Positions 31,004 to 47,685 of a stretch of 64,000 nucleotides of DNA are shown piece after piece. A program made the position numbers and the translations under genes. The notes beneath the pieces were generated by a model. That model did no database searches. It saw nothing but the letters and a program-made list of their open reading frames with translations, and was not told the DNA's origin. This DNA comes from Neptunicoccus cionae (GTDB lineage: Bacteria > Pseudomonadota > Alphaproteobacteria > Rhodobacterales > Rhodobacteraceae). The first letter of the stretch is position 1. Every line of letters starts with the position of its first letter. The stretch spans positions 868,001 through 932,000 of the forward strand of contig NZ_PKOJ01000001.1 of NCBI RefSeq assembly GCF_002860325.1. Direction: 5' to 3'.

Positions 31004-31501
31004 TCAGGAGACTATGCCAGCCTGCAAAATCAGGTAACAGGCGAGGGACGCGCTGAGTGTGACGCCGTAGGGAAATTTTCCGCCCACCTGCCAGGATTTC
31101 CAACCCGCAAGATAAGGTTTCAACGAACCGATTGCGCCGATCCCGCGATGCAATGCAACAGTCAGCAGTGACAAGGCGGCAAGCAGCATCAGGAACATTG
31201 TCGCGTCCCCGAGTGCGATGAACGGCGCCATTGCCGCGATAAACTTGCTGTCGCCTCCGCCCATATAGCCGAAAGCCGTTAACAAAAAGCCAACGGCCAG
31301 CATGAGCGCGGCCTGAGCAATGCGCAGGGCATATAGATCAAGCGGGAAGATCAGCAGGCCGACCACAGCAAAGGCCAGAAACAGCCCCAAGGTGGTCTTA
31401 TTATAGATTTTCATGTACCGCAGGTCGCTGATCGCGGCCCAAATGCAAAAGGGCAGGGCGATCAGCAGAAGAACCACTGTCGGGTCCAAAAGTTTTTCCA
31501 T
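31004..31501 (-). CDS. cpaA: A24 family prepilin peptidase (TadV/CpaA)
   Basis: Inner-membrane aspartyl peptidase of 165 aa that removes the leader of Flp-type prepilins and pseudopilins. The two catalytic aspartates are in AAISDLRYMKIYN and GYMGGGDSKFIAAM (the GxGDxK-type motif). About five hydrophobic segments. Short form lacking the methylase domain, as in Tad systems. Its start overlaps the upstream TPR gene stop by one base. Confidence 0.93.
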   Translation of the reverse strand: MEKLLDPTVVLLLIALPFCIWAAISDLRYMKIYNKTTLGLFLAFAVVGLLIFPLDLYALRIAQAALMLAVGFLLTAFGYMGGGDSKFIAAMAPFIALGDATMFLMLLAALSLLTVALHRGIGAIGSLKPYLAGWKSWQVGGKFPYGVTLSASLACYLILQAGIVS

Positions 31502-32358: not shown

Positions 32359-32382
32359 GGGTCTGTTCCTGTACTGCTCGTT

Positions 32383-32994
32383 TTAGCCCGAGTTTGATGT
32401 GGATAGCAGCAGGTATTTTCCGTTGCCCCGCCTCACCAACTCGAAGTCATTATTAGTATTAGGAGAAGAATACTCCGTGTTATCCATAATTGCGATAACT
32501 TTGGTCAAATTCTTGCGAATTTCTTCGGAACTGCCGTTATCAAGCCCATATGCGAGCTGAAAGACACGCTTTGCCTCGGCATATTCACCCTGAGACATCA
32601 AAACGACGCCCAGATTGTTCCATGCCGGAACGAAATCGGGGTCTTTTTTCACAGCGAGTTGCAAGAGTTCATTGGCGTGGTGCAAACGGCCCAGGTGCAT
32701 GTTGGCAGAGCCAAGGGCGCTCAGCACATCGGCATTCAGCCCCTTTTCAGCCGCTGCGCGCGTATAAGCTTTCAGTGCAAGTTCATATTCTTTTGAGGCC
32801 ATAAGACGGTGCCCGACAGTCAGCCCGTCCACTGCTTCGGTCACTTTTTCCGTTCCCGCCGGCGCCTTCAACCCTTCGTGCACCACTGCGAGCGAACGGG
32901 AGTTCACTGTCTGACTTCCAGAGCAGGCGCCAAGGGCAACAGTCGCGAATGCCGCTGCCAGCGCGGCCGGATTATTTTTGAACCATGTGAACAT
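32383..32994 (-). CDS. tadD: TPR lipoprotein TadD
   Basis: A 203-aa lipoprotein (ALAAAFATVALGACSGSQ) with TPRs (ELALKAYTRAAAEKGLNADVLSALGSANMHLGRLHHANELL, AWNNLGVVLMSQGEYAEAKRVF). TadD is needed for Flp pilus assembly. The ATG at 32994 is inside the end of tadC (23-base overlap), so translation is probably coupled; an upstream TTG at 33003 is less likely. Confidence 0.87.
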   Translation of the reverse strand: MFTWFKNNPAALAAAFATVALGACSGSQTVNSRSLAVVHEGLKAPAGTEKVTEAVDGLTVGHRLMASKEYELALKAYTRAAAEKGLNADVLSALGSANMHLGRLHHANELLQLAVKKDPDFVPAWNNLGVVLMSQGEYAEAKRVFQLAYGLDNGSSEEIRKNLTKVIAIMDNTEYSSPNTNNDFELVRRGNGKYLLLSTSNSG

Positions 32995-33955
32995 AGATAT
33001 CAAAGACCGAAGGTCCCACCATAATTACAAGAAGAGGAGGCACCGTGAACATCATGGTGCAGAGCGTCATTTTTGTTGGCAGCTTGTTGGCCTTTTCTTC
33101 GGCGCGGGTCACACGTTTGTCCCGCATTTCAGAGGCGTATACCCGCAAGGCTTCGCCAAGGGATGTGCCGAAGGTGGCCGATTGGATCATCACAGTCACA
33201 AAGGCGGAAATGTCCTGACAGTCACAACGTTCCGCCATGTCGCGCAGGACTACCGGGCGTTCCTTACCGGCGCGCATTTCGTTCGCTACGATGGTGAATT
33301 CTTCAGAAAGGGCAGGGGCCGACGGGGCGATTTCCTTGGCGACACGTTGCACCGCCTGATCAAGCGACTGGCCCGCCTCGATACAAACCAGCATGAGGTC
33401 GAGCGAATCGGGGAAGCCGTTCAGGATTTCTTCCTGACGGGTGCCGCGGCGCTTTTCGACCCAGTAAATCGGGGCGTAGTAACCGACAAAACCCGGACCA
33501 AGGGTCTGGATTGCAAGCCATTTCAGATCGGATGTGCCGCTTGTCAGCAGGAACGTGTAAATTGTGCCCAGCAGCAGCCCCGCCAACCCGAGCACAAGTT
33601 GCAGAAAGTGGAAGGTCCGCACAGCGCCTTTAGTCCGGTAACCGGCCTGGATCAGCTTGAGCCGCCGGTCCGAAAATTCCTGTTGGTCCTGCGGTTCGAG
33701 ATAAGCGGCAAACTTGTCGAGGTTCGGCCCCTTCTGTTTTTCCCGTAGTTCCAGCTTGGGTTGGTCCCCGGAGCCCCGTTTCGGGCTCGGGTTGCGCACC
33801 GCAGATCCGGCCAGCCGGTCAAACGGGTCCTCCTTTTTGGTCAGCAGGAAGGGCAATGTCATTACGATACAGAAAATGCCAAGCACGCCCATGGCGATGA
33901 AAGGGCCCGCTGGCCCCAAGATTTCTTCAAGGTATAAGTTGAACTGTTCAAGCAT
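32972..33955 (-). CDS. tadC: Tad inner-membrane platform protein TadC
   Basis: Type II secretion F-domain protein of 327 aa, partner of TadB in the inner-membrane assembly platform. Hydrophobic segments are at about residues 17-38, 110-140, and at the C-terminus (TLCTMMFTVPPLLVIMVGPSVFDIY). The T2SSF domain occupies about 170-310 (FPDSLDLMLVCIEAGQSLDQAVQRVAKE). Ten bases separate it from tadB. Confidence 0.95.
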   Translation of the reverse strand: MLEQFNLYLEEILGPAGPFIAMGVLGIFCIVMTLPFLLTKKEDPFDRLAGSAVRNPSPKRGSGDQPKLELREKQKGPNLDKFAAYLEPQDQQEFSDRRLKLIQAGYRTKGAVRTFHFLQLVLGLAGLLLGTIYTFLLTSGTSDLKWLAIQTLGPGFVGYYAPIYWVEKRRGTRQEEILNGFPDSLDLMLVCIEAGQSLDQAVQRVAKEIAPSAPALSEEFTIVANEMRAGKERPVVLRDMAERCDCQDISAFVTVMIQSATFGTSLGEALRVYASEMRDKRVTRAEEKANKLPTKMTLCTMMFTVPPLLVIMVGPSVFDIYVHMVQK

Positions 33956-33965
33956 CTGACGGCTC

Positions 33966-34928
33966 CTATACCTTAATGTTTACCATGTGACGCATAACCA
34001 AAACGTTAATGGCAAGCATGACAAACACGGCAATCGCTGCGGGCATGTAGTATTCAGTGGGCTTAACGGCATCATAATACGTGGGGTTCATCACGTTCAC
34101 ACCACCGAGCGCGGCAAGGGGGAAGCCGGAGAGGAACATGCCGGACCATTTTGCCTCGGCGGTGATGGCATTTACGCGACGGAACAGTTTGAACCGCGAA
34201 CGGATCACTTTGGACAGCCCGTCAAGAACTTCGGCCAGATTACCGCCCGCTTTGGCCTGAATAGCCACAGCAACGGTCAGAAAGCGCAGGTCGGGTACGT
34301 CAATCCGCTCTGCCATGTTGTTCAAGGCAGCGGCAATATCGGCGCCATAAGCAGTTTCATCAACGATCATGCCAAACTCGGATCCGATCGGATCGGGCAT
34401 TTCTGTAGCTACGATGTTGATTGCGTTGGAAAAGGGGTGGCCCACGCGCAGGGAGCGTACAATAAGGTCAACCGCATCCGGCAGTTGTTCTTCAAAGGCA
34501 GCCATGCGTTTTTTCGCCTTACCGCTAAGCCAGAAATAAACACCGCCGCCCCCGATCAGAACAGAGAGAATGCAGCGCAAAACCAGACCGGTTTCGGTGA
34601 AATAGGTGAGGCCGCCAAAGCTGAGCGCGGCAACCAGTATCATCACCATAATCAAGGCAGTCGGCGAAAAGGCTATGTTGGCCTGCTGCGCCTTGTGGCT
34701 GAGAATGGACATGATTGGCAGTTTCAGGCCGGAAAGATGCTGGTCGCGCTCCTTGCGCAGCGCCTCGAACACCTCTTCTTGTGCCTTGCCGGTTTCCATC
34801 AGCGCCAGTCGACGGTTCACGCGGCTGTTCAGTTTGATGGATTTTCCAAAGGTCACAAGGTAGATGCCCTCGACGATCAGAACAACGCCGACGAAGATCA
34901 GAAGATAGATAACTGCCTGTGTACCCAT
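33966..34928 (-). CDS. tadB: Tad inner-membrane platform protein TadB
   Basis: Type II secretion F-domain protein of 320 aa. Hydrophobic stretches near residues 5-25, 95-135 and 290-312. The T2SSF core reads QLPDAVDLIVRSLRVGHPFSNAINIVATEMPDPIGSEF, then LRFLTVAVAIQAKAGGNLAEVLDGLSKVIRSRF. TadB and TadC act together as the PilC-like platform above the TadA ATPase. Confidence 0.95.
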   Translation of the reverse strand: MGTQAVIYLLIFVGVVLIVEGIYLVTFGKSIKLNSRVNRRLALMETGKAQEEVFEALRKERDQHLSGLKLPIMSILSHKAQQANIAFSPTALIMVMILVAALSFGGLTYFTETGLVLRCILSVLIGGGGVYFWLSGKAKKRMAAFEEQLPDAVDLIVRSLRVGHPFSNAINIVATEMPDPIGSEFGMIVDETAYGADIAAALNNMAERIDVPDLRFLTVAVAIQAKAGGNLAEVLDGLSKVIRSRFKLFRRVNAITAEAKWSGMFLSGFPLAALGGVNVMNPTYYDAVKPTEYYMPAAIAVFVMLAINVLVMRHMVNIKV

Positions 34929-34940
34929 GGTTACGGTTCC

Positions 34941-36401
34941 TTATTGCGCGGCGGTCTGGCGGCGCGGAGAATAAATGCTGGAGGGCAGGTCATAGCCCCA
35001 CTGTTTGAAGCGGTCCGAATAGAGAGAGCGCAAGCCGGTCGGCGTGAAATCCCCGATCAGCTTGCCGTCTTTTCCGGTGCCTTCGATTTCGTATTTGAAG
35101 ATTTCCTGCAACGAGATCACATCGCCTTCCATACCGGCGACTTCCGTGATGGAAACCATCCGGCGGGAACCGTCCTGAAGACGTTTGGCCTGCACGATCA
35201 GGTTTACCGCCGAAGCGATCTGGGAGCGCATGGCACGCAGAGGCATTTCAACGCCGGTCATGGCGATCATGTTCTCGAGACGGGCAACCGCGTCCCGCGC
35301 AGAGTTGGCGTGGATTGTGGTCATGGAGCCGTCGTGACCGGTGTTCATCGCCTGAAGCATGTCGATCACCTCATCGCCGCGGGTCTCGCCCACGATGATC
35401 CGGTCCGGACGCATCCGCAGGGCGTTTTTCAGACAGGCGCGGGCGTCAACCTCACCTTTGCCCTCAACGTTTGGCGGGCGTGTTTCCATTCGCGCAAGGT
35501 GTTGTTGTTGCAACTGGAGTTCCGCCGTATCCTCGATCGTGGCAACACGTTCGTCATTGGCGATAAAGCTCGACAAAGCGTTCAGGGTTGTGGTTTTACC
35601 CGAACCTGTACCGCCTGAAACGATGATGTTCAGACGACAGGCCACAGCTGCTTGCAAATAGGCGGCCATTTCGTCGGTGAAGGCCCCGAATTTCACCAGA
35701 TCGTCGATGCCCAGCTTGTCCTTTTTGAACTTCCGGATGGAGACCAAGGCTCCGTCAATGGCGATTGGGGGGACCATGGCGTTAAAGCGGGAACCATCCT
35801 GCAAACGCGCATCAACATAAGGGTTGGATTCATCAACACGACGTCCCACAGCCGAAACGATCTTGTCGATCACCCGCAGCAGGTGTTTGTCGTCGCGGAA
35901 AACCACACGGGACAGGGACAGCTTACCCTTTTTCTCGATAAAGATCTGCTTCGGGCCGTTGATCAGGATATCGGCGATGTCATCGTCTTTCAGCAACGGT
36001 TCCAATGGCCCGAGCCCAGTGACCTCGTCGTACATTTCGTTATTGAGGTTGGTACGTTCCTCTTTTGATAAAACCAGCCCCATTTCCTGGAGGCCATCCG
36101 CGCAGATCGCTGCGATCTCGCGGCGCAGGTCCGCTTCAGAAGCGCTCTCGATCGCGCCGAGGTTCAGGTTCTCCAGCAGTCGGGTGTGCATGTCCAGACG
36201 CACGTCCATAAGTTTCTGGGCGCGGCGTTCTTCACGGGTAAGGTTGTCCGATTTTGCTTTGGTAGCAGGCACCGCCTTGGGCGGCGCTTTGGCTGCAACG
36301 GGCTCCGGAGCAGGCGCCTGTGGCGCAACAACCGCTTCGGGTGCTGCGCTCGGGGCTGTCGGTGCCGGTTTGGCGTCGGGCTTCTTGTATCTCTTGAACA
36401 T
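34941..36401 (-). CDS. tadA: Tad secretion ATPase TadA/CpaF
   Basis: Type II/IV secretion hexameric ATPase of 486 aa powering pilus extension and retraction. A Pro/Ala-rich N-terminal extension (1-50) precedes the N-domain; Walker A GGTGSGKT is at 263-270, the Asp box [20 protein letters not shown] follows, then the Walker B/His region [41 protein letters not shown]. Sits between tadZ and tadB in the usual order. Confidence 0.97.
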
Positions 36402-36414
36402 CTTGTACTCCCCG

Positions 36415-37647
36415 TTATTGGGTGTCGTCTCTTACGAGTTCGGATAATGTCTTGGCGATCTTGAATATTTCCTTACGGAGCGGATTTTTTGCGGCAATCT
36501 CTGCCAGCGGGACGCCTTCATCCCCTGCATTTGACACCGCCTTGCCTCCGTCGGGCAAGTGATACCGGAAATCGATTTCCAGACTCTCTCCCATGCGTTT
36601 AACCCGCTGTTTACCAGACATGTCGGTAAATTTCGGGGCGCGGTTCAGGGCGAACTGGACCTTTTCGAATGGCAGGTCTTCGGCCTTGAGTGTCCGGACA
36701 AAGCGCAGGGCATTCTGGGCGCAGCGCATGTCGAGTTCAAGCACAGCGAAATACAGTTGTGCCTCTTCCAGAACTGTTTCGGACCAGCTGACCAATGCTT
36801 GCGGAACATCTACGATAACAAAGTCATAGCTGGATTTTGCAAGTGTCAGAATATTCTGGATGCCGTCCGGCTCCACGAATTCCAGCGGCAAGGCGTCAAT
36901 TGGCGAGGACAGCACATCGAGCCGGTCCTTATAAGCCGCCATAGCCTGTTGCAGCCCTGTCGCGTCTGTTGCAGCAGCGTCTGAAAGAAACTCGAACACA
37001 GCTTCAGAGCGGGGCACGTCCAGATAGGTAGAGACTGCACCGTACTGGAAATCGAAATCGAGAATACAAACTTTTTTATTCTCTTTTTCACTAATTTTCT
37101 GAAGCTCCCAGGCCAGATTGGCTGCGAAAGTCGTCGCGCCGACACCGCCGCCAAGTCCGTAGACCGGCAAAACGATTCCGCTGCGCGTTGTGTCAGCCGG
37201 AGGCATAGCAGCGCCGGGGGCAGCGACAGGCTGCGGAGCGGGAACATTGGAAATGCGTTCTATTGCGTCGTGCAACGCCCCTTCGGGAAGCGGGTAGGGG
37301 GCGAAATCATCGCAGCCCATACGCATCAACTGGTGTAGTGCAACAGTGTTCAGCTCGTTGGGGATCAGGATGACCTTGATGCCCTTGTCGCTGGCAGCGC
37401 GGATCGCATTTGCAACGGGCGTAAGATCGTTTTCGTCTTCCTTGTCTACCGCGATGGTAACAAGTTTCAGATCCTTACCGATTTCGGAATTCAATGCTGC
37501 TTCGGCAGCCTCAAACGTCAGGGCGCCCCAATTCTCGTCGAATTCGGTCTCCATATCTTCAATCAGAAGATCGAACGCTTCAATGTCGCGTGCGATAGCG
37601 CAGGCGATCACTTTATCCGCATTCTTATGTTCTGTTTCGGCGCTCAT
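36415..37647 (-). CDS. cpaE: Tad pilus ATPase-like localisation protein CpaE/TadZ
   Basis: MinD/ParA-superfamily protein of 410 aa with an N-terminal receiver-like domain (about 10-130) and a C-terminal MinD-like domain. The P-loop GLGGGVGATT at 164-173 lacks the usual lysines of the deviant Walker A, as seen in other atypical TadZ proteins. TadZ positions the pilus machine at a cell pole. ATG 37647 has ACCGAGGT upstream and avoids the extra MGWTEV leader. Confidence 0.92.
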   Translation of the reverse strand: MSAETEHKNADKVIACAIARDIEAFDLLIEDMETEFDENWGALTFEAAEAALNSEIGKDLKLVTIAVDKEDENDLTPVANAIRAASDKGIKVILIPNELNTVALHQLMRMGCDDFAPYPLPEGALHDAIERISNVPAPQPVAAPGAAMPPADTTRSGIVLPVYGLGGGVGATTFAANLAWELQKISEKENKKVCILDFDFQYGAVSTYLDVPRSEAVFEFLSDAAATDATGLQQAMAAYKDRLDVLSSPIDALPLEFVEPDGIQNILTLAKSSYDFVIVDVPQALVSWSETVLEEAQLYFAVLELDMRCAQNALRFVRTLKAEDLPFEKVQFALNRAPKFTDMSGKQRVKRMGESLEIDFRYHLPDGGKAVSNAGDEGVPLAEIAAKNPLRKEIFKIAKTLSELVRDDTQ

Positions 37648-37758
37648 TACCTCGGTCCACCCCAATGCGGGATTTTTTCCCGCTTGTATTTAAAGCGCAT
37701 AATGCGCCCATTCTTCACATAGGAAATACTTTAAAATTGTGGTAATATTTTGTTTGAT

Positions 37759-37788
37759 GCGGGCAATTTTAATGAAAACGCTGCCCGC
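37759..37788 (-). other. Inverted repeat upstream of cpaE
   Basis: GCGGGCA and TGCCCGC arms 16 bases apart lie in the 160-base gap between the OmpA-like gene and cpaE. It could be an attenuator or operator for the downstream tad genes. Confidence 0.4.
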
Positions 37789-37808
37789 ACCTGAGTAGCT
37801 GAAAATTG

Positions 37809-38450
37809 TTATTCTGTAGTGTCTTCAGTCGTGTAAGTCGTCGAAATGTACTGATCGTAGACGTATTTAGCATATTTGCCATCCAGATCCGAAGCACGCC
37901 CTTTGCGGGCGAAGCCGTAGACCTCCGTCACAGTGCGACGGTTCGCGCGGCTGGGCCCTTCCGTGAGGACAACAGGCCGGGTTTCCCCGAAGGACGCAAC
38001 AGCCTGAACCTTGCGCCGGTCGACGCCTTGACTGACAAGATAGTTTACGGCTGCAACAGCGCGCTGTTTGCCTAGACGGCGGTTATAGGCATTTGAGCCA
38101 ACCTTGTCTGTGTGCCCGTAAACGCGGAACACGATTTGTGGGTGGGCTTTGATCCATTCGGCCTGACGACGCAGCTGGCTTTGGGCGGTTGCGTCCAAAG
38201 CAGCGGAGTTAAAGGAAAAATTGATCTGTGCCGGTGCTTCAGCAGCGAATTTGCGCGTCAGATTGGCCGCCATCGTGCCAAGTTGGCCCGACAGGATTGC
38301 AACGTTATGAGCCGTTGAAACGCCCAGATTGGCATCGTTGATCTCGGCCCCAGCTTCCGGCCCCAGATAGGCGAAAGAGTTGTCGCTGACCGAACAACCG
38401 GCGAGCAGGAGAGCCACAACGGCGGAGGAGGTGATTGATACAGTTTTCAT
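37809..38450 (-). CDS. OmpA-like lipoprotein in the Tad locus
   Basis: A 213-aa lipoprotein (SSAVVALLLAGCSVSDNS) with a C-terminal OmpA/MotB peptidoglycan-binding domain (NFSFNSAALDATAQSQLRRQAEWIKAHPQIVFRVYGHTDKVGSNAYNRRLGKQRAVAAVNYLVSQGV). It occupies the place where CpaD/RcpB is found in other Tad loci, between the secretin and TadZ, so a role in anchoring the secretin to the wall is likely. Five bases from cpaC. Confidence 0.88.
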   Translation of the reverse strand: MKTVSITSSAVVALLLAGCSVSDNSFAYLGPEAGAEINDANLGVSTAHNVAILSGQLGTMAANLTRKFAAEAPAQINFSFNSAALDATAQSQLRRQAEWIKAHPQIVFRVYGHTDKVGSNAYNRRLGKQRAVAAVNYLVSQGVDRRKVQAVASFGETRPVVLTEGPSRANRRTVTEVYGFARKGRASDLDGKYAKYVYDQYISTTYTTEDTTE

Positions 38451-38455
38451 CTGTC

Positions 38456-39865
38456 TTACTCCATCACATAGCCGTAAGAACCGGTGAAGTCCTGAGAGGA
38501 CACGGAACCTGTGGCGCGTTTCACGTTGTTACCTTTGCGGTTGCCAGTGACATTCCCCAAGAGGAACAGTTCGCTCTCGTTCGGGATCTTCACACGGTCG
38601 GTCGGCAGGCTGAGGCTGTCTCCGTCCACGGGCGTTACAAGGTGTGGCGTTACGATCACAACCAGCTCACTTTGGTCGCGGGAATAATTGGCACTGCGGA
38701 ACAGGGCGCCAAGGATCGGCACATCACCAAGCCACGGCACTTGAGACGCGGCGTCGGTAAAGTTGTCCTGCAGCAGGCCTGCGATGGACATGCTCTGACC
38801 GTCGCGCATCTCTACAACAGTGGTTGCCTCGCGTTTGGAAAACGCCGGAATGACAGAGCCGCTGACCGTAACGGATTGAGTCGGGTCCAGTTCGGAAACC
38901 GCGCTTTCAATCGTCAGGTTGATCAGGTCGCCGTCCACCACGATGGGCTTGAATTTCAGTTCAATACCAAAGGGTTTGTATTCGATTGTGATGCCGTCGC
39001 CGTCAGCAACGGGAACAGGGAATTCACCACCTGCAAGGAAGCTGGCTTCGTTGCCGGAAATGGCCACAAGGTTCGGTTCGGCCAGTGTGCGGACCAGACC
39101 CTTGGTTTCCAGTGCTTCCAGCATCAGGTTGATTGCCAGATCACCCGAGGAGAAGCCCAGAGAGAAGGCGCCCTGTTGACCTGTTGTGGCAACGCCAACC
39201 CCTGTGGTGGTCGGAGTTTGCAACAGCGAACCGGTGCCGATTTGGGCAACCGGGCTGCCACCTGTAATATCGACGCCGATACTGGCGGAAAGGTTTTTGG
39301 CAACACTGCGTTGCATTTCTGCAAAGCGGACTTTCAACATAACCTGTTGCGAGCCGCCGACTGTCATCAGGTTGGTGACGCGTTCAGGGGCATAGCGTTC
39401 TGCCAGATCCAGCGCCCGTGCCAGTCTCTGTTTGCCCGAAACGCGGCCCGAAAGGACGATACCGTCGTTGGCTGTGCGCACTTCGATCGGCTCACGGGGA
39501 AGAATTTCCCGAAGCCGCTCTTTAAATTCCGCCAGATCAGGGGAGACGTGCACATCTACGTTGGTAATCAGCTTGCCGTCTGCGGCCAGCAGGGTCAGAG
39601 TCGTTCGGCCAGGGGATTTCCCCAGAACATAAATGGTCCTATCCGACAGTGTCGCAATGTCTGCGATACCCGGATTGGCCACTGATAGTTCTGCGAAGGG
39701 CTGGTCGGATTCCATGACGATGGCACGGTTTACCGATACTTTAATACTACTTGTGGTCGCGCCACGCATGATTTTCAGCACGTTCTGCGCTGCTGCCGGT
39801 GGTGCGACGAAGCCGGTTGTGCATATGCCCAACAGGCCTGCTGTTAACAGGTTTTTAATACTCAT
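38456..39865 (-). CDS. cpaC: Tad pilus outer-membrane secretin CpaC/RcpA
   Basis: Secretin of 469 aa forming the pilus pore. It has a signal peptide (LLTAGLLGICTTGFVAPPAAAQ), an N-terminal pilus-secretin domain (SDQPFAELSVANPGIADIATLSDRTIYVLGKSPGRTTLTLLA), a BON-like segment (LREILPREPIEVRTANDGIVLSG), and the conserved secretin domain ending VPWLGDVPILGALFRSANYSRDQSELVVIVTPHLV. Preceded by a 223-base gap containing a terminator for cpaB. Confidence 0.97.
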   Translation of the reverse strand: MSIKNLLTAGLLGICTTGFVAPPAAAQNVLKIMRGATTSSIKVSVNRAIVMESDQPFAELSVANPGIADIATLSDRTIYVLGKSPGRTTLTLLAADGKLITNVDVHVSPDLAEFKERLREILPREPIEVRTANDGIVLSGRVSGKQRLARALDLAERYAPERVTNLMTVGGSQQVMLKVRFAEMQRSVAKNLSASIGVDITGGSPVAQIGTGSLLQTPTTTGVGVATTGQQGAFSLGFSSGDLAINLMLEALETKGLVRTLAEPNLVAISGNEASFLAGGEFPVPVADGDGITIEYKPFGIELKFKPIVVDGDLINLTIESAVSELDPTQSVTVSGSVIPAFSKREATTVVEMRDGQSMSIAGLLQDNFTDAASQVPWLGDVPILGALFRSANYSRDQSELVVIVTPHLVTPVDGDSLSLPTDRVKIPNESELFLLGNVTGNRKGNNVKRATGSVSSQDFTGSYGYVME

Positions 39866-40035
39866 GTGATCCTGCCTCTCTGAACCACTACTGCTTTGAT
39901 CCGGGTCTTTGCTGCCCGATTATTACCGAGCACACTGCGTCAAATGGGTTTTATTATCAAGATTCAATATTTTGTAAGGGCCAGTGTATGTTGAAACGGG
40001 GCAACAGTGTCACAGTTTTATCCTTGATCTCATAG

Positions 40036-40060
40036 CAAAACGGGCGCCGAAGCGCCCGTC
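40036..40060 (-). terminator. Intrinsic terminator between cpaB and cpaC (TTCG tetraloop)
   Basis: On the minus strand ACGGGCGC pairs with GCGCCCGT around TTCG, followed by TTTT. It lies 29 bases after the cpaB stop, so cpaB may be transcribed apart from cpaC and the rest. Stable UUCG loops are common in terminators. Confidence 0.8.
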
Positions 40061-40088
40061 TGTCTGTTGCAATCGAGTGTTTGCGGGA

Positions 40089-40931
40089 TCAGTTGGAGCA
40101 GGGGATCGGGATTTCGATCACTTCGGCACCACGGCGGGTTTTGATGGTGCAGACCTCTTTTTCGACCAACTTGATCTCTTCGCGGCCAAGTAGATCGTCC
40201 TTGGTGATCTCGATCTGCTCGGAGGTGGTTTCGTCATCGATGCCGCGCAGGGACAGCAGCAGCTTCCCGGTGGATTGGGCCTGAACCAGTGCCGCAATGG
40301 TTTTCACATTGGCGGCGACGGTCACTGTGCGTGCCACGGTCGGGCGGTTTCGGGTTGCATCGGCCTGCTGGTCGATTGCGATCAGTTCCAAGCCGTTCAG
40401 GATCAGTTTCGTCACGGTTTCTTTTTCCGTCGTACCGGTCCAGTAGACATCAACCTTGTCGCCGGGGCGCAGGAAGCCGGATACACCGGAGGCCACATCA
40501 ACGCGGATTGCAAAGGCGCGCATCCCCTTTTTCAGACGGGACGACACGCCCGCATCTTCGCCGAGGCGGGTCACTTTGGAAGCCAGAATAGCCTCGCCCG
40601 GAACCATTGCCTGTAGCACGGTACGGAATTCGCCGTCGTCTTCTCCGCTACCCATCAGAGCTTCCAGTTCGGAAAAGGAGTTTTCCGGAACGGCTGCCAC
40701 TGGAAATTCCACCGCTTTAACATCTTCTTCTGTCAGCGGTTTGCCGTATTCAAGTTCGTTCGCTGCGACATAGACTGTCTTCAGGTCGATCTTCTGGATT
40801 GTCGGCGTGTTCTTCTGTGCGAGAGCCGCTTCATATTGATTGAAACGCTCCATCGCCATGTAAACGGCGCCACCTGCTATGGCGACCCCCATAATTAGCA
40901 CTAATGCAAAAACCATACGCATTTTCTTCAC
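40089..40931 (-). CDS. cpaB: Tad pilus assembly protein CpaB/RcpC
   Basis: Periplasmic, membrane-anchored protein of 280 aa with an N-terminal helix (MVFALVLIMGVAIAGGAVYMAM) and a SAF domain (VYVAANELEYGKPLTEEDVKAVEFP, then GFLRPGDKVDVYWTG). CpaB/RcpC works with the secretin in pilus assembly. A cysteine pair closes the protein (CTIKTRRGAEVIEIPIPC). Flanked by the Flp pilin gene upstream and a terminator downstream. Confidence 0.95.
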   Translation of the reverse strand: MKKMRMVFALVLIMGVAIAGGAVYMAMERFNQYEAALAQKNTPTIQKIDLKTVYVAANELEYGKPLTEEDVKAVEFPVAAVPENSFSELEALMGSGEDDGEFRTVLQAMVPGEAILASKVTRLGEDAGVSSRLKKGMRAFAIRVDVASGVSGFLRPGDKVDVYWTGTTEKETVTKLILNGLELIAIDQQADATRNRPTVARTVTVAANVKTIAALVQAQSTGKLLLSLRGIDDETTSEQIEITKDDLLGREEIKLVEKEVCTIKTRRGAEVIEIPIPCSN

Positions 40932-41200: not shown

Positions 41201-41374
41201 TTACGATACGGAAGTCGCGGACAGCTGAGTGTTGATGTCGGAGGCCAGATCTTCCATGCCGCCGCGGATCGCTGTCACAACAACGCCACCAACCAGAACC
41301 AGTGCAGCTGTCAGAACAACCCAGTCTACAGTTACAGCGCCGTCTTCGTCTTTTGCAAATTTAAACAGTTTCAT
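41201..41374 (-). CDS. flp: Flp-type (type IVb) pilin-like protein
   Basis: A 57-aa prepilin-like protein. The basic leader MKLFKFAKDEDG ends at the predicted peptidase site G12/A13, followed by AVTVDWVVLTAALVLVGGVVVTAI as the pilin helix and a short tail. Flp pilins have G-x4-E-Y here; this protein has Asp17-Trp18 at positions +5/+6. The ATG at 41374 sits behind TTGGAGGG; an in-frame upstream start would lose that site. Location upstream of cpaB supports a pilus role. It is either the major pilin or a minor variant. Confidence 0.85.
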   Translation of the reverse strand: MKLFKFAKDEDGAVTVDWVVLTAALVLVGGVVVTAIRGGMEDLASDINTQLSATSVS

Positions 41375-41726
41375 TTTTGAACCCTCCAAGGTCACATTTA
41401 AGTTTTTCTCTTAGACCCGGCTAATTGGGAGAGCGTTCTCGTCAATGCTCGGCCCGTCGTGTCTATGAAGCTATTTATACTGGGAAATGTGACCACAGTT
41501 TGGCGCATAAACTTCGAATTTATAGGATTTTCACTTTTTGTCGCAGTAAGTCGAAATTCCCTTATTTTACGATACTTTACTTGTGAAATTTTTTCTGGAA
41601 CCGGCGGTTTTTTGCAGGGTGGGAAGGACTTTTCGACAAAAAAGCCACAGTTAAAACACACAATCTTCTAGCTTTGCGGCTGCTTTTTTGCGATTCCTAG
41701 GAAAACAAAATCAAAAGAGCAGAGCA
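41375..41726. other. A+T-rich divergent intergenic region
   Basis: About 350 bases between the Flp pilin and the lytic transglycosylase, clearly richer in A+T than its surroundings. It should hold both promoters. I see no coding frame with a ribosome site or family feature and no strong hairpin. Confidence 0.6.
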
Positions 41727-42587
41727 GTGACAGGTATTCCCGCATTCAAAGCGGTGTGTTTGGCCGGAGCAATCAGTCTTGCCGGAGCACTCGCCCCGAC
41801 AGCAAGCGCACAAGGCATCACGTTCAAGAAGGTGGGCGTTCCCGGCAAGACCTCGGGCAAGCGCATTAACGTGCAGATCACGCCTGAAGAAGACTATTAT
41901 AAACGTCTCCACCGCGAAAAGATGGAAAACCAGAAGGCAGGGGCTGCCGCGGATAAAGCAGGCGTTGCGGTTGCAGCTGTAAAACCGACAGACCTGCAGG
42001 ATTGGTTCTGGGACGAAAATTCGCCACTGATTACAGCAGCGGCTTCCGGACGGCTGGAAAAAGCGCTGCAAAGCCTGAACAAGAATCCCGGACATTCCGC
42101 ACGCCTGTCGCCCAATATCGGGCACATGCAATCGCTGGCAGATAAATATGGTGGCAATATCCTGCTTGCGACTTTGGGCAAGAATGTATCGCCAGCATTC
42201 GTACTGGCTGTAATCGGTGTGGAATCAGCCGGACGTGCCGATGCGGTCAGCGGGGCAGGGGCTGTGGGGCTGATGCAGCTTATTCCTGACACCGCCGCAC
42301 GTTTCAATGTAACGGACAGCACCGATCCGGCCCAGAATATCAAGGGTGGCTCGGCCTATCTGGACTGGTTGTTGGACGAATTCGACCGTGACCCGCTTCT
42401 TGCGCTTGCAGGTTACAACGCCGGCGAAAATGCCGTGAAAAAGCATCTTGGCGTGCCACCCTATCCCGAAACCCGTGCCTATGTGCCCAAAGTGGTCGCA
42501 GCATGGCAAGTCGCCCGCAGCTTGTGTATGACGCCGCCCAAATATGTGACAGACGGATGCGTCTTCAAAACAAGAGCCAGTAAATGA
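41727..42587 (+). CDS. Lytic transglycosylase domain protein (SLT family)
   Basis: Periplasmic peptidoglycan lytic enzyme, 286 aa. Signal peptide MTGIPAFKAVCLAGAISLAG and on to ASA, then a low-complexity linker, and the SLT domain with the catalytic glutamate in VIGVESAGRADAVSGAGAVGLMQLIPDTAARF and the closing ALAGYNAGENAVKKHLG. GTG 41727 gives the cleanest signal peptide; TTG 41688 is the longer option. Its TGA overlaps the next gene's ATG (ATGA), tying it to the UbiA fusion gene. It could open the wall for the pilus or belong to the envelope-sugar cluster. Confidence 0.9.
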   Translation: MTGIPAFKAVCLAGAISLAGALAPTASAQGITFKKVGVPGKTSGKRINVQITPEEDYYKRLHREKMENQKAGAAADKAGVAVAAVKPTDLQDWFWDENSPLITAAASGRLEKALQSLNKNPGHSARLSPNIGHMQSLADKYGGNILLATLGKNVSPAFVLAVIGVESAGRADAVSGAGAVGLMQLIPDTAARFNVTDSTDPAQNIKGGSAYLDWLLDEFDRDPLLALAGYNAGENAVKKHLGVPPYPETRAYVPKVVAAWQVARSLCMTPPKYVTDGCVFKTRASK

Positions 42588-44005
42588 CCAATAAAAGACC
42601 GCTTGCCGTAGATATCGACGGCACCTTCCTGAAAACAGATATGCTGTTTGAGGGGTTCTGGCTTGCGATGGGCAAACAGCCCCTGAAAACAATAAAGACC
42701 GTTTTCCGCCACTTTAATGACCGTGCCCGTCTGAAGCGCGAGATTACCGAGCTTGCGGATGTGAACGTCGAGTTGTTGCCGGTCAATCCCGATATCAAGG
42801 CCTATATGGAAGAAGCCCGTGCCGACGGGCGGGAGGTGATTTTTGCTTCTGCCAGTGACGCGACCCTTGTGCAACGGCTTGCCGAACACCACGGGGTAGA
42901 AGGGGATCACATCGGTTCGGACGGAGAAGTGAACCTGAAAGGGGAAGCCAAGGCGGCCGCTCTGAATGCCCGTTTCGGCGAGGGGCAATACGCCTATGCC
43001 GGAGATCAGAAGCTCGACTTCAAAGTCTGGAAATCCGCTGGCGAAGCGATTGTTGTCGGGCGCCACCCATCAGTGGTGCGACAGTTGAAAGAGGACGGGG
43101 TGGACGTCGTGCAGGTCAGGAAGTCCTGGTCCCGCCGGTCCCTCGCTATGGGGTTGCGGCCCCATCAATGGGTCAAGAACGCGCTGCTGTTTCTGCCGCT
43201 GATAGCCGCCCATTCCCTTGATCCGCTGTCGATCATGCGGGTAATACTGGCGATCGCTGCTTTTTCGGCTGCTGCTTCTTCAATCTATATCGTAAATGAC
43301 CTGCTGGATCTGGAAGCAGACCGCCAGCACCCCAAAAAACAGTTCCGCCCGCTAGCCTCTGGTAATGCGCGCATTCCCGATGCCATGTTGATGAGCTTTG
43401 CGCTCGGAGTGTTTGCGCTTGGGGTCGGGTTTATCCTCGGCTGGGCGCTCCTGGGGGTGATTGCGCTCTATATGCTTTTGTCCCTGTCTTACTCTTTAAA
43501 GCTGAAGAAAATGCGCTGGGTCGATATTGCCACCCTTGCGGCCCTTTATACCCTGCGGGTGATCGCTGGCGGGCTTGCCGCGCAGGTTGCGGCCTCTGGT
43601 TGGCTGGTCGGTTTCATCTTCCCGACCTTCCTTGCCCTTGGGTGTGTGAAGCGCCTGACCGAACTGACCCTTGCGAAATCGGATGGCAAGGTGCCCGGAC
43701 GGGGCTATCGCAAATCGGACCGCGAGGATCTGGTGAATGTGGCAGGTCTTGGCGTGTTCTTCTCGCTTTTGGTGTTCCTGATGTACACATTTAGCGGAAC
43801 GGCAAAGATGCTGTATCAGGATATCTGGATGCTGCGCCTTGCGATCATTCCCCTTGCGTTGTGGCAGATCCGTATGGTGCTGCTCGGCTGGCAGGGGAAG
43901 CAGGATTATGACCCGATTGTTTTCGCCATGCGGGATAAATCCGGCATCGCAATCATCGCAGTAACGGTGCTGATCCTGTTCTACGCCGCTGGCGATTTCG
44001 CCTGA
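42584..44005 (+). CDS. HAD phosphatase - UbiA prenyltransferase fusion (DPPR synthase-like)
   Basis: Two-domain 473-aa protein. Residues 1 to about 185 are a HAD hydrolase: LAVDIDGTFLKTD (DxDGT), ASASDATLVQRLAE and YAGDQKLDFKVW. Residues about 190-473 are a polytopic UbiA-family transferase: LRPHQWVKNALLF, YIVNDLLDLEADRQHPKKQFRPLASG (the NDxxDxxxD site) and CVKRLTEL. This UbiA part resembles decaprenyl-phosphate phosphoribosyltransferase (mycobacterial Rv3806c). The fused HAD domain could remove the 5-phosphate from the product. With DprE1/DprE2-like genes nearby, the predicted pathway leads to polyprenyl-phosphoryl ribose then arabinose. Confidence 0.87.
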   Translation: MTNKRPLAVDIDGTFLKTDMLFEGFWLAMGKQPLKTIKTVFRHFNDRARLKREITELADVNVELLPVNPDIKAYMEEARADGREVIFASASDATLVQRLAEHHGVEGDHIGSDGEVNLKGEAKAAALNARFGEGQYAYAGDQKLDFKVWKSAGEAIVVGRHPSVVRQLKEDGVDVVQVRKSWSRRSLAMGLRPHQWVKNALLFLPLIAAHSLDPLSIMRVILAIAAFSAAASSIYIVNDLLDLEADRQHPKKQFRPLASGNARIPDAMLMSFALGVFALGVGFILGWALLGVIALYMLLSLSYSLKLKKMRWVDIATLAALYTLRVIAGGLAAQVAASGWLVGFIFPTFLALGCVKRLTELTLAKSDGKVPGRGYRKSDREDLVNVAGLGVFFSLLVFLMYTFSGTAKMLYQDIWMLRLAIIPLALWQIRMVLLGWQGKQDYDPIVFAMRDKSGIAIIAVTVLILFYAAGDFA

Positions 44006-44148
44006 GCACTCTCACAAGGAACCAGACGCTGAAGGCTCAAACCCGTTGCGAGGCTCCGTGTACCTGTCGCAGCCGGATGAAATTTCCGATCTGAAGCGGT
44101 TTTTGTGGTACACTTGCCCTCATAGAAACTGCAACGGGAGGGCTGGCT

Positions 44149-44640
44149 TTGAAATACGGATTAACTATGGTCTTCGGCTTGGTGCTTGGGATCGCGCCAC
44201 ATGCACAAGCGCAACAACTGGAGCTTTGGGGGACCGCTGGCGGCTGGGAAGTCCTGATCGATCCCTCGCTGGGGGACGGATGTCTGATTCAGGCAGAGTA
44301 CAATGACGGCTCTGTGGTGCGGATCGGATTCGACCGGCTCGAAGGCGGCGCATATGTGACCGTCTTTAACGACGCGTGGGGCGATATCGAGGAAGACGCT
44401 ATTTATCCGATCTCTTTTTCCCTCGACGGGCAGGTTTATGACGGCGAGGCGGTAGGTATCTATCTGGAAAATATTCCGGGCGCGGATATTGCCTTTACGA
44501 ATGCTGATTTCCTTTGGGATATTGCCAAGCGATATACAATGACACTCTATTCCGAAGAGGGTGAGGTTATGTCCATCGATCTGGACGGGAGCTATGTTGG
44601 GCTTGAGGCCGCGCTGGAATGTCAAGACGAAGTCGGCTAG
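44149..44640 (+). CDS. Secreted protein of unknown function
   Basis: A 163-aa protein with signal peptide (MKYGLTMVFGLVLGIAPHAQA) and an acidic mature part rich in Gly, Asp and aromatic residues (ELWGTAGGWEVLIDPSLGDG, GFDRLEGGAYVTVFNDAWGD). One cysteine near each end (GDGCLIQAE and ALECQDE) could form a disulfide. TTG 44149 has GGGAGG upstream; ATG 44167 is the fallback. Similar small periplasmic proteins are common in roseobacters, but I assign no function. It lies between the UbiA fusion and the convergent dprE2-like gene. Confidence 0.78.
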   Translation: MKYGLTMVFGLVLGIAPHAQAQQLELWGTAGGWEVLIDPSLGDGCLIQAEYNDGSVVRIGFDRLEGGAYVTVFNDAWGDIEEDAIYPISFSLDGQVYDGEAVGIYLENIPGADIAFTNADFLWDIAKRYTMTLYSEEGEVMSIDLDGSYVGLEAALECQDEVG

Positions 44641-44670
44641 CCAGCAAAGCTGCACAGATCCGGTACATTG

Positions 44671-45408
44671 TCAGACAGAAAGCTTTTTAAAAATCGGCTC
44701 GGGGATGGATTTGATAATCGCCATGATGTAGCGCCAGAAAAACGGCGTGTAGAGCGTATTCTTGCGCTTTTCATGGGCGGTCCAAAGATCCTTGGCAATT
44801 TCTTCGGGACTGGCCACTAGGAACATGCCTTCAATTCCCCATGTCATCGCAGTGTCCACAAACCCCGGTTTTACGGTGACAACATGCCCGCCGCTGCGGT
44901 TCAGACGGTTGCGCAGGCCGGACAGGTAGGTGTGAAAACCGGCCTTGGCCGCGCCGTAGGTGTAGTTGCCGATCCGGCCGCGATCCCCCGCAACCGACCC
45001 GATGCCAAGGACAGTACCGCCCTTTCGCTCTTCCATGATCGGGGCAAGCCCGTGCAGGAAGTTGACAGGGCCGGTGAAACTGTCCTGAATGGTCAGATCG
45101 CCCGTATTCGGGTCTGCGTCCACATCCCCTTGCGGCGCCATAGAGCCGACGAAAACAGCCGCGTTAATGATGCCGTCATTGGCTTTAGCGGCGTCATAGA
45201 TCGGTGCGAAACTTTCGGGTTTGCGCACGTCAAACAGGACAGATGCCGCCGAAGCCGCGCCCCTTGCAAGACAATCCGCAGCGGTGCGATCCAGATCATC
45301 CTGATCCCGCGCGGCAAGCACCAGATGCGCGCCTTCAGTGGCAACTTTGCGGGCGAAAGCGCGGCCCATAGCCGAACCGGCGCCGAGTATTATCCATGTC
45401 TGGCTCAT
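44671..45408 (-). CDS. SDR family oxidoreductase, DprE2-like (2'-keto reductase)
   Basis: Short-chain dehydrogenase of 245 aa. The cofactor motif is ILGAGSAMGRAFARKVA, the catalytic Ser-Tyr-Lys set is GIGSVAGDRGRIGNYTYGAAKAG, and the C-terminus FWRYIMAIIKSIPEPIFKKL closely parallels that of mycobacterial DprE2 ([20 protein letters not shown]). DprE2 reduces the keto intermediate made by DprE1 to give polyprenyl-phosphoryl arabinose. The start overlaps the dprE1-like stop by four bases. Confidence 0.87.
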   Translation of the reverse strand: MSQTWIILGAGSAMGRAFARKVATEGAHLVLAARDQDDLDRTAADCLARGAASAASVLFDVRKPESFAPIYDAAKANDGIINAAVFVGSMAPQGDVDADPNTGDLTIQDSFTGPVNFLHGLAPIMEERKGGTVLGIGSVAGDRGRIGNYTYGAAKAGFHTYLSGLRNRLNRSGGHVVTVKPGFVDTAMTWGIEGMFLVASPEEIAKDLWTAHEKRKNTLYTPFFWRYIMAIIKSIPEPIFKKLSV

Positions 45409-46727
45409 GCGGGGGTCCTCAATTTCAGGCGGCGGACAAGATCGGTTTGGAAAACGCCGTCCGGATCGGCTGCCTCAACGGTTTTCTGCCATTCTGCCAG
45501 TTCGGGATACATCTGACGGGCCTGCGCCGCGGTAGCCAGACTGTCTTTGGCGAAATAAATGCGGCCTCCGGCTTCTGCGGCCAGTGTGTTTAACTGGGCC
45601 ACCAGCGCACGGGATTTTTCGCTATTGGGAAAGTCCAGCGCCAGCGTGAATCCTTCCATCGGGAAGGAGAGCGAACCGGCCCGCCCCGGACCTGTGCGTT
45701 TCAGAACCGCCAGCGGCGAGGCAAGCCCCGCATCTGCGATCAGGCGCAGCATATCGCGCAGGGTGCGTTCGGCGATTTTATCGGGCAGAACGCATTGGAA
45801 CTGGTGGAAGCCGCGCTTGCCATAGAGCTTGTTCCAGTCGTGGATTTTGTCGAGCGGGAAGAAAAAATCCTTGAGGCTGCGCAACACGCCGCGCCCCTGT
45901 TTCGGGATGCGGTTGAAATACATGCGGTTGAACAGCCGTACTGTCGGTGGGGACAGCGCAAATTTCGGGGCATTGAACGGCACCTTGCGCGGCTTGCGCA
46001 GCTTCGGGGCCATGTTGGAACTGGTCAGTTCGGCCTCTTCCAGAATACCCCGTCCAAGGCTCTGGCCATTGGCGGTGCCGTCAATCCAGCCAACACAATA
46101 AGTCGCGTCCGAGGCTTTGAGCATCTCCATGAACTCTGCCAGATTTGCCGCGCGGCGTTCGTCTACCTGTATCAGACGGGACGAGCAGGGGATCATCCGG
46201 ATTTTGGCCGACAGGATCGCACCCGTTTGGCCCAGCCCGCCGATTGTCGCTTTAAACAGGGCGGGATCGCCTTCGGGTGTCACAGTTGTGGGGTTGCCAT
46301 CCGCTCCTGCCAGTTCGATTTCCAGAACATGCTGGCCGAAGGTGCCCACCTTGTGATGGTTCTTGCCGTGGACATCGTTGGCGATACAACCGCCGAGCGT
46401 GGCAAATCCGGTTCCCGGCATTACCGCGGGCATCCAGCCTTTGGGGGCGAATGTGTCGAGCATATCGGTAATGGAACAGCCCGCTTCGGCATGCAGGATA
46501 CCAGTGTCCCCATCAAAGCTGATAAAGCGGTCCAGCCGCGTCATGTCGACGGCGCGCCCGTCGCTGTTCACCGCCGCATCCCCGTAGGAGCGTTGCGCAC
46601 CGATGGCAGGGGCGGGCGTGTCTGCGAATATCCCCGACAGGGCGGCGGGTTTTTCTGGGCGGGCCAGTTCGGCCTTTCCGGATAAAACACGGCCCCAGCC
46701 GGTCAGTTCAACGGTTTTCCAGCGCAT
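45405..46727 (-). CDS. FAD-binding oxidase, DprE1-like (decaprenylphosphoryl-ribose 2'-oxidase)
   Basis: Flavoprotein of 440 aa with the VAO/PCMH FAD fold: QRSYGDAAVNSDGRAVDMTRL, MPGTGFATLGGCIANDVHGKNHH (residues about 103-125) and TIGGLGQTGAILSAKIRM. The C-terminal substrate domain matches DprE1 in FFFPLDKIHDWNKLYG, GSLSFPMEGFTLALDFP, YFAKDS and VRRLKL. Ala363 aligns with the mycobacterial Cys387 hit by benzothiazinones, while Lys394 keeps the spacing of Lys418. ATG 46727 follows CGGAGG. Overlaps both neighbours, so the three minus-strand genes form one operon. Confidence 0.89.
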   Translation of the reverse strand: MRWKTVELTGWGRVLSGKAELARPEKPAALSGIFADTPAPAIGAQRSYGDAAVNSDGRAVDMTRLDRFISFDGDTGILHAEAGCSITDMLDTFAPKGWMPAVMPGTGFATLGGCIANDVHGKNHHKVGTFGQHVLEIELAGADGNPTTVTPEGDPALFKATIGGLGQTGAILSAKIRMIPCSSRLIQVDERRAANLAEFMEMLKASDATYCVGWIDGTANGQSLGRGILEEAELTSSNMAPKLRKPRKVPFNAPKFALSPPTVRLFNRMYFNRIPKQGRGVLRSLKDFFFPLDKIHDWNKLYGKRGFHQFQCVLPDKIAERTLRDMLRLIADAGLASPLAVLKRTGPGRAGSLSFPMEGFTLALDFPNSEKSRALVAQLNTLAAEAGGRIYFAKDSLATAAQARQMYPELAEWQKTVEAADPDGVFQTDLVRRLKLRTPA

Positions 46728-47685
46728 GTGGCCTCCGTGCGGCAGCGGTTTCGGCAATCGGGAAGATCAGTACACCCAGCCCGATTGCAAACCAGAGCGT
46801 CGTGATGCGGATAATGGCAGTAGCAGGCAGGGCGATTTCCAGCGGAACCCCTTGCAAGGACAATAGCGCGAGCATGGCGGCTTCTGCACCGCCAACGCCG
46901 CCGGGCAATCCGGTGGCGCCGCCGGTCATCATGGCAAAGACAAAGATGCCGACACAGGTCCATACAGGCAGGCTTGCGCCCATCCAGTCAAGCAGAAGGT
47001 AAAAGGCATACCCTTCTGCGAACCAACCCAGAAAGCCCAGTGCGAAGGCGGGCAGCGCAATGGCGGGTTGGGAAAACGGTTTCAGCGAAAGCGCCGCGCG
47101 GCGGGCGCGGGCGAACAGACGCGGCTTGCGTCCGATCAGCTTGTATAATGTGGTTACGCACCAGCGGAACAGGGCAGGGCGCGTCGCAATTATGGCGGCG
47201 AGGATTGCGACAATGGCAACGGGGATGCCACCACTGATGCCACCGGCCATAACCAGCATCGCAGCCGCCAGCAGCAGGCCGGAGGAGGCGAGATCAGCCG
47301 CACGGTCAACCAGCACCAGAGGCGCAGTGCGTTCAACACTGGCGCCGGTTTCACGGTTGATCCAGCGCACCCGCACCAGTTCTCCCAGCCGTCCCGGCGT
47401 CATGGTGAGGGCAAAGCCGCCCAGATAATGCCGCAACACCTGTAAAACCCCGAGGTCCAGCCCGAGCGCGCGGCCGTAAAGAAACCAGCGAAAGGCGCGG
47501 AAGGTGTAGTTGATAAGGGAAAGGGCCAACAAGATACCGATTTGCGTCAGGGACAAGAGGGTGATCTGATGCCAGATGTCTTCTCCGGAGGCGGTGGCAA
47601 AGGCCAGCACACCGCACCCCAGGAAAATCGCCAGAACGATCAGGGTGGAGCGATATGGATGCGCGCCGTTCATTGCGGGTGTCAT
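46708..47685 (-). CDS. YbhN/UPF0104-type membrane protein (LPG synthase TM-domain family)
   Basis: Inner-membrane protein of 325 aa with eight or so helices, of the lysylphosphatidylglycerol-synthase transmembrane family. Motifs: YTFRAFRWFLYGRALGL, GGFALTMTPGRLGELVRV and TGLPGGVGGAEAAMLALL, which are the family's conserved loops. Such proteins are often found in cell-surface glycan loci and may move polyprenyl-linked sugars or lipids. It starts the operon with the DprE1/DprE2-like genes (20-base overlap with dprE1), so translocation of the arabinose carrier is a possible job. Confidence 0.85.
   Translation of the reverse strand: MTPAMNGAHPYRSTLIVLAIFLGCGVLAFATASGEDIWHQITLLSLTQIGILLALSLINYTFRAFRWFLYGRALGLDLGVLQVLRHYLGGFALTMTPGRLGELVRVRWINRETGASVERTAPLVLVDRAADLASSGLLLAAAMLVMAGGISGGIPVAIVAILAAIIATRPALFRWCVTTLYKLIGRKPRLFARARRAALSLKPFSQPAIALPAFALGFLGWFAEGYAFYLLLDWMGASLPVWTCVGIFVFAMMTGGATGLPGGVGGAEAAMLALLSLQGVPLEIALPATAIIRITTLWFAIGLGVLIFPIAETAAARRPHALENR

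Follow-up and report, generated by a model that had tools for sequence, protein, structure and literature searches.

Genes at the locus

The window analysed here, a stretch of 64,000 nucleotides from Neptunicoccus cionae (contig NZ_PKOJ01000001.1, positions 868,001 to 932,000), contains a group of genes resembling the decaprenyl-phosphoryl-arabinose (DPA) route of mycobacteria, which supplies lipid-bound D-arabinose to the tuberculosis cell wall. An earlier note, made from the sequence alone, had picked out four genes as a DPA-like pathway, encoding a UbiA-type transferase, a short-chain reductase (SDR), an FAD oxidase and a YbhN-type membrane protein. All four are present (Table 1), their matches are far above chance, and the NDxxDxxxD and HGKNHH motifs it had named can be found in the sequences. 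The note had also placed the four in one operon. This holds for the SDR, FAD oxidase and YbhN-type genes, which overlap on the minus strand, but not for the UbiA gene, which is on the other strand and convergent with them. To these genes we add a candidate transferase of GT-C fold. In the window it is separated from the donor genes by a Tad pilus operon, at the other end of which the donor genes lie.

Table 1. Genes of the proposed arabinosylation system and its neighbourhood in the window.
Feature	Position	Strand	Basis or remark
HAD-UbiA fusion, 473 aa; polyprenyl-phosphate phosphoribosyltransferase with a phosphatase-like part	42584..44005	+	NF006088, DPPRS match, motifs
DprE2-like short-chain reductase (SDR), 245 aa	44671..45408	-	Best PDB match; DprE2 model under its cut-off
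DprE1-like FAD oxidase, 450 aa	45405..46757	-	M. tuberculosis DprE1 match, tree, active-site columns
Membrane protein of YbhN/LPG_synthase_TM type, 325 aa; candidate for flipping the lipid-linked sugar	46708..47685	-	PF03706, TIGR00374, occurrence
GT-C-fold membrane protein, 544 aa; candidate arabinosyltransferase	29366..31000	+	Next to cpaA, in convergent orientation, at the Tad operon's 3' end
Flp pilin gene; possible acceptor, a role we infer	41201..41374	-	Open reading frame 41201-41395, start taken at the second Met
Tad pilus operon	31004..40931	-	Prepilin peptidase, TadD-like TPR proteins, TadC/TadB-type, CpaF, CpaE, OmpA-like, secretin CpaC, CpaB
Lytic transglycosylase (SLT) gene	41688..42587	+	Last 4 bases shared with the start of the HAD-UbiA gene

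Probable enzymes of donor synthesis

The entry enzyme is recognised over residues 3-469 by the NCBIfam fusion model NF006088, at 497 bits against a cut-off of 351. In Pfam it has a UbiA match, while the HAD match alone stays below its cut-off; the best PDB match by sequence is DPPRS of Mycobacterium tuberculosis (E = 1.7e-27). The UbiA part comprises approximately residues 188-470 and carries NDxxDxxxD at 238-246 (NDLLDLEAD). The N-terminal HAD part, on which the earlier note is silent, features the nucleophile motif DxDGT at 10-14 (DIDGT) and GDxxxD from residue 140 (GDQKLD). The roles of these motifs are taken from PMC11127046. According to that paper, a HAD-UbiA fusion of the same kind, ORF15 of Citrobacter youngae, makes farnesyl-phospho-ribofuranose from phosphoribosyl pyrophosphate, its HAD part takes off the phosphate, and homologues of DprE1/E2 are reported in systems with arabinofuranose.

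By sequence, the best PDB match of the FAD oxidase is M. tuberculosis DprE1 (E = 5e-75), and that of the SDR is a DprE2 chain (E = 2.9e-23). Pfam assigns FAD_binding_4, plus a weak ALO match, to the oxidase and a short-chain dehydrogenase domain to the SDR. Acting together, the two enzymes would invert C2 of the lipid-linked sugar, giving polyprenyl-phospho-D-arabinofuranose.

A maximum likelihood tree of 51 rows places the oxidase in the DprE1 group. The 24 oxidases of the window type (clade A) are joined at 100/100, and clade B (99/95) takes in 20 others, which include two plasmid copies and the oxidase of the IRBG74 noe operon. Together with M. tuberculosis DprE1 these 45 rows are split at 100/100 from an outgroup of six other FAD oxidases of the window's own genome, none of which is a characterised gulonolactone oxidase; the M. 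tuberculosis branch is long, as are the branches to the outgroup. The earlier note had remarked that related genes make arabinosyl donors for nodulation factors, with which the position of the noe oxidase agrees.

The alignment columns of the M. tuberculosis active-site residues Tyr60, His132, Lys134 and Lys418 are identical in 44/44 alphaproteobacterial rows and different in the outgroup. The column of Cys387, the benzothiazinone target of the mycobacterial enzyme, is Ala in all 44, so covalent binding of these inhibitors would not be expected here.

Conservation across Rhodobacterales

We searched 121 Rhodobacterales genomes for the same genes; the counts that follow are not corrected for kinship. 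A DprE1-like gene (E = 1e-40) is found in 46 of them: 24, the window's own genome included, have it at 53% identity at least (clade A); in the remaining 22 the identity is 40-45% (clade B). UbiA is matched (E = 1e-30) in 44 of the 46 and in 6 of the 75 genomes without DprE1. Stretches of up to 20 kb around DprE1 were retrieved for 40 of the 46 genomes (the window serves for the own genome; G007, G032, G069, G079 and G119 were left out), and the SDR gene adjoins DprE1 in 40/40, truncated in G055.

The two clades differ in layout. Among the 23 clade A loci, UbiA is convergent with SDR-DprE1 in 20, YbhN is present in 22 (the exception is G087) and Tad genes are found in the stretch in 16; in G106, UbiA is on another contig. 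The clade B layout, seen in 17 loci, has all genes in one orientation: UbiA, a small gene, DprE1 and SDR.

The surroundings are more widespread than the cluster. SLT is present in 112/121 genomes and is probably only an operon neighbour of HAD-UbiA. The SLT-Tad locus was read over 18.5 kb in 20 genomes lacking the transferase; it is present in all 20, and in none of them does this stretch match UbiA, SDR, DprE1, YbhN or the transferase. Two of these genomes (G003, G013) carry a clade B DprE1 elsewhere. Thus, donor genes and transferase are the variable part around a stable locus. The locus of G055 looks like the product of one deletion: a TadD-like match starts at the point where the SDR match stops, and the locus has lost UbiA, SLT and the majority of its Tad genes.

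Several results count against equating these enzymes with the mycobacterial ones or treating the set as fixed. The oxidase reaches 395 bits with the NCBIfam DprE1 equivalog NF053785 (cut-off 500), and we therefore call it DprE1-like and do not file it as the mycobacterial equivalog. The SDR reaches 151 bits with the DprE2 equivalog NF053786 (cut-off 250) and is for that reason termed DprE2-like only; it also falls short of NF005489 (256 bits, cut-off 267). UbiA is absent from two of the 24 clade A genomes (G052, G055), and in G035 the UbiA match starts at residue 177, without the HAD part. Nevertheless, the homology of the enzymes, the tree, the retained residues and the Citrobacter fusion enzyme give good support to a DPA-type route, and the cluster very probably encodes the enzyme steps to a polyprenyl-phospho-D-arabinofuranose donor. 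The DPA-like reading of the earlier note is supported by the oxidase tree, in which M. tuberculosis DprE1 clusters with the FAD protein and 43 relatives from alphaproteobacteria, and by the co-conservation of UbiA and SDR with DprE1. Pathways of the DPA type have been described in other bacteria than mycobacteria, so this is chemistry of a known kind.

A candidate flippase in the place of GtrA

The last gene of the minus-strand operon encodes a protein that scores 135 bits with Pfam PF03706 (LPG_synthase_TM; cut-off 33.4) and 66.3 bits with TIGR00374 (cut-off 43.2). A close YbhN match (E = 1e-10) is found in 23 of the 24 clade A genomes and in 0/97 others of the order sample. At 64 DprE1 loci, a YbhN and a GtrA profile were run against the open reading frames up to 5 kb from DprE1: 28 loci have YbhN, 23 have GtrA, 13 have neither and none has both. 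Because both profiles derive from the positive loci themselves, the positive counts arise by construction; the absence of loci with both does not. YbhN occurs in 23/24 clade A loci and 5/20 loci from other alphaproteobacterial families, in which it lies between UbiA and DprE1; GtrA occurs in 17/17 clade B, 3/3 plasmid-borne and 3/20 other-family loci. The small clade B gene beside DprE1 is GtrA (PF04138) in both proteins scanned, and the noe operon of IRBG74 has a GtrA gene in the same place.

Judged by gene content and fold, the YbhN-type protein is the leading candidate for flipping the donor, and a reasonably probable one; it would carry polyprenyl-phospho-D-arabinofuranose across the inner membrane. 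GpgF, a protein of the YbhN family, is a predicted flippase (PMC12713373). Alternatively, the protein might move or balance other lipids, the donor being flipped by a protein not recognised here. This would suit the reports, in PMC11980842, that the transmembrane part of the related MprF is a promiscuous scramblase that moves lipids and that E. coli YbhN is discussed together with cardiolipin genes. Two of our own results also speak against the YbhN-type protein as flippase: G087, a clade A genome, keeps the other genes without YbhN, and 13 of the 64 loci have neither candidate gene. What makes the alternative unlikely in our judgement is that YbhN fills the GtrA place without ever sharing a locus with GtrA, that its close form is missing from all 97 genomes of the order sample lacking clade A DprE1, and that it recurs between UbiA and DprE1 outside the order. 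The distribution of PF04138 genes in the five genomes searched points the same way in part: the own genome has none, while G087 has three; yet G052, with one, also has YbhN (G014 has two and G100 one).

A candidate arabinosyltransferase

The GT-C protein at the 3' end of the Tad operon follows clade A closely. It occurs in 24/24 clade A, 2/22 clade B and 0/75 DprE1-less genomes, such that 26/26 transferase-bearing genomes have a DprE1 gene; G162 adds a third clade B case from the named genomes. When genomes were chosen by presence of the transferase, 47/50 carried DprE1 (50 of 80 named genomes examined). At the genus level, DprE1 is present in 18/18 transferase-bearing genera and in 9/40 others (Fisher p = 1e-8). 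In G087, G072 and G106 the transferase lies apart from the DprE1 gene and both are kept.

The predicted model of the protein has a pLDDT of 93, and its leading PDB matches are GT-C enzymes, namely ArnT, ALG3, EmbC and AftA, at Foldseek TM-scores of 0.31-0.46. An acidic residue in the first outer loop, Asp49, is invariant in 22 and in 54 members. The window member has no Pfam or NCBIfam assignment; NCBIfam gives no match in 22 members and the PDB no match by sequence. One of the 22 has a Pfam GT87 match at E = 0.0041, in a comparison that did not include profiles for TfpW and GT136.

Relatives of the transferase are encoded by 320 stretches in a collection of genomes from 84,980 species. The titles of the best 80 of the 320 name Rhodobacteraceae, Paracoccaceae, other genera of Rhodobacterales or unresolved alphaproteobacteria. 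The carriers include the culturable Maritimibacter alkaliphilus HTCC2654 and Litoreibacter albidus. One relative lies on a contig of a genome of the same genus, Neptunicoccus sediminis CY02 (locus L146, genome G064). Among 289 genomes of the class, 35 have DprE1-like genes; besides the own genome, the transferase profile picks up two genomes from a single other family, by weak and partial matches. G052, a clade A genome without HAD-UbiA, has a second, diverged copy (28% identity) away from Tad, at about 489166-490626 of its contig C1 (L104, L123).

Gene content and fold lead us to regard the GT-C protein as likely to be the arabinosyltransferase, which would transfer D-arabinofuranose to a periplasmic or surface acceptor. 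The protein could instead use another donor and merely travel with the DprE1 of this lineage, the arabinosyltransferase being encoded elsewhere. Fold alone does not tell the donor, and the leading matches have TM-scores of 0.31-0.46; the co-occurrence is uncorrected for kinship, and the 20 clade B genomes without the protein must use other transferases. We still consider this alternative improbable, given that the transferase was found only with DprE1 in the order sample, clade B DprE1 included, that the association is also seen between genera, and that both genes are kept where they have been separated.

Polytopic proteins without a Pfam match are also found near clade B DPA clusters (L055:4907-6478, L044:12249-13877, L268:4841-6004), some with a GT-C-like start; it is possible that these are the transferases of that type.

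The Tad pilus as a possible target

Pfam names four genes of the Tad operon; for the others, the Cpa/Tad names come from visual inspection of the sequences. In 72 of the 80 named loci the transferase lies within 1.5 kb of cpaA, or of the TadD-like gene that follows, in convergent orientation. Of the remaining eight, two end too soon (L168, L181), two have Tad nearby in another arrangement (L199, L204) and four show none (L152, L184, L197, L222). In the order sample we examined 22 of the 26 transferase-bearing genomes (all except G015, G114, G047 and G045), and the gene is at the Tad 3' end in 20. In two of these genomes, G014 and G100, the locus itself has no donor genes, those present being of the other type and located on different contigs, and the transferase has kept its position.

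The pilin itself gave a modest signal. After residue 25, Flp pilins from loci with the transferase are richer in Ser/Thr (share 0.303 with vs 0.245 without, p = 0.009) and poorer in acidic residues (0.079 vs 0.12, p = 0.003) than those from loci without (38 and 39 loci, respectively). The same loci show no difference in pilin residues 1-25, pilin length, CpaB or SLT. These composition tests are exploratory and not corrected for kinship. A C-terminal pilin motif, noticed by eye, was present in 12/22 loci with and 0/20 without the transferase.

The likeliest single acceptor would be the Flp pilin or a different Tad component. What points to the Tad pilus is location together with weak pilin statistics, and we put its being the target a little short of an even chance. 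The arrangement and the pilin composition fit a glycosylated pilin, but are not decisive, and a polysaccharide acceptor is a serious rival. The same donor and transferase may serve an envelope polysaccharide (lipopolysaccharide, capsule or exopolysaccharide) or another glycan, the adjacency to Tad being an inherited neighbourhood; we would give this a substantial minority chance.

Several results weigh against the pilus and towards such a glycan. CpaC is found in 117/121 genomes, four of them with a distant copy only, and Tad is thus nearly universal in the family; with Tad and SLT as family core, one old insertion would give the same map. In G011 and G049 the transferase is away from Tad. The pilin motif did not replicate at the 0.05 level in a fresh set (5/17 vs 1/19, p = 0.08). 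Characterised relatives of the fusion enzyme, moreover, serve O-antigen side chains, as described in PMC11127046. For the pilus, on the other hand, there are the position retained in most loci, even where the donor genes differ and lie elsewhere, the difference in Ser/Thr and acidic content, and the same layout in Pseudomonas, where it serves pilin arabinosylation (PMC12369383, PMC11841053). Taking the scheme as a whole, from donor to acceptor, we lean slightly towards a surface target receiving the arabinose, and this may be the Flp pilin.

Many relatives (L040, L060, L077 and others) have two to four tandem Flp pilin genes between cpaB and SLT, sometimes identical; one was found in the window.

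Other open reading frames

The earlier note had placed a secreted protein inside the cluster; its open reading frame, 44149-44640, does not belong to the cluster in relatives. It has a signal-peptide-like start and lies between UbiA and SDR; tblastn (E = 1e-6) gave no match to it in 40 relative loci, including L058 of the same genus, in which UbiA and SDR are about 20 bases apart. A weak match of 29% lies at L127:17146-17556, beyond another Tad locus. Further along the window, the open reading frame 52527-53405, beside a RimO-like gene, by eye resembles GIY-YIG/T5orf172-type proteins.

Implications

According to PMC11127046, neither mycobacteria nor Citrobacter offer direct experimental evidence for the protein by which lipid-linked pentoses cross the membrane. 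With GtrA and YbhN alternating naturally beside DprE1, a flippase function can be tested in marine bacteria that grow in culture. The transferase family, whose window member is assigned to no Pfam or NCBIfam family, provides a marker for such systems in the stretches encoding a relative. Tad pili serve attachment. In Phaeobacter inhibens they are a likely phage receptor (PMC7643831). Should the arabinose go to the pilus, sugar modification of Tad pili can be tested for, and, if real, might serve phage avoidance or attachment.

Comparison with known systems

The mycobacterial DPA route consists of Rv3806c, Rv3807c, Rv3790, Rv3791, Rv3789 and the Emb/Aft enzymes. The window shares DPPRS-, DprE1- and DprE2-like enzymes with it, as well as the GT-C fold, AftA and EmbC being among the leading matches of the transferase model. 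It differs in having YbhN in place of a protein of the small-multidrug-resistance/GtrA type, and a fused HAD part where mycobacteria have an Rv3807c-like phosphatase (PMC11127046).

The noeCNHOP operon for Nod factor arabinosylation in IRBG74, as described in PMC5080398, also combines UbiA, DprE1-like and DprE2-like enzymes. There, however, the UbiA protein has no Pfam HAD match and GtrA takes the flippase place, as opposed to HAD-UbiA and YbhN here. The transferase profile does not recognise NoeP (401 aa, named from gene order), which scores E = 0.063 among 8 proteins. The second noe gene, noeN by order (L266:5582-6004, Agrobacterium pusense IRBG74 plasmid NC_022536.1), belongs to the GtrA family (PF04138); it has been proposed as the phosphatase in PMC5080398. 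Its mild deletion phenotype would fit a flippase helper.

Citrobacter youngae O1/O2 has a three-component system for pentofuranose glycosylation (Kelly et al. 2024; PMC11127046), which likewise uses a HAD (PRP)-UbiA entry enzyme, epimerisation on the lipid and a GT-C transferase. Its flippase is of the MATE family and its transferase belongs to GT136, whereas here the gene in the operon, the one place considered for a MATE flippase, is of YbhN type and the GT-C family has no Pfam match above cut-off or NCBIfam match. There is no O-antigen locus here, but a Tad pilus locus instead.

A parallel in layout is pilin arabinosylation by TfpW in Pseudomonas paraeruginosa, for which PMC11841053 and PMC12369383 describe DPA genes gathered in a genomic island and a GT-C gene, tfpW, beside the pilin gene. 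The likeness to TfpW is one of gene layout and GT-C type, and the pilin there is of type IVa, whereas the candidate acceptor here is Tad/Flp (type IVc). Tentatively, we suggest that the Rhodobacterales system may arabinosylate Tad pili through a new GT-C family and a dedicated YbhN/MprF-type transporter where other DPA operons have GtrA, which would parallel TfpW. The system is a variant of known extracytoplasmic pentofuranose systems, and what is new in it is the candidate transferase family, the candidate flippase alternating with GtrA and the Tad pilus setting.

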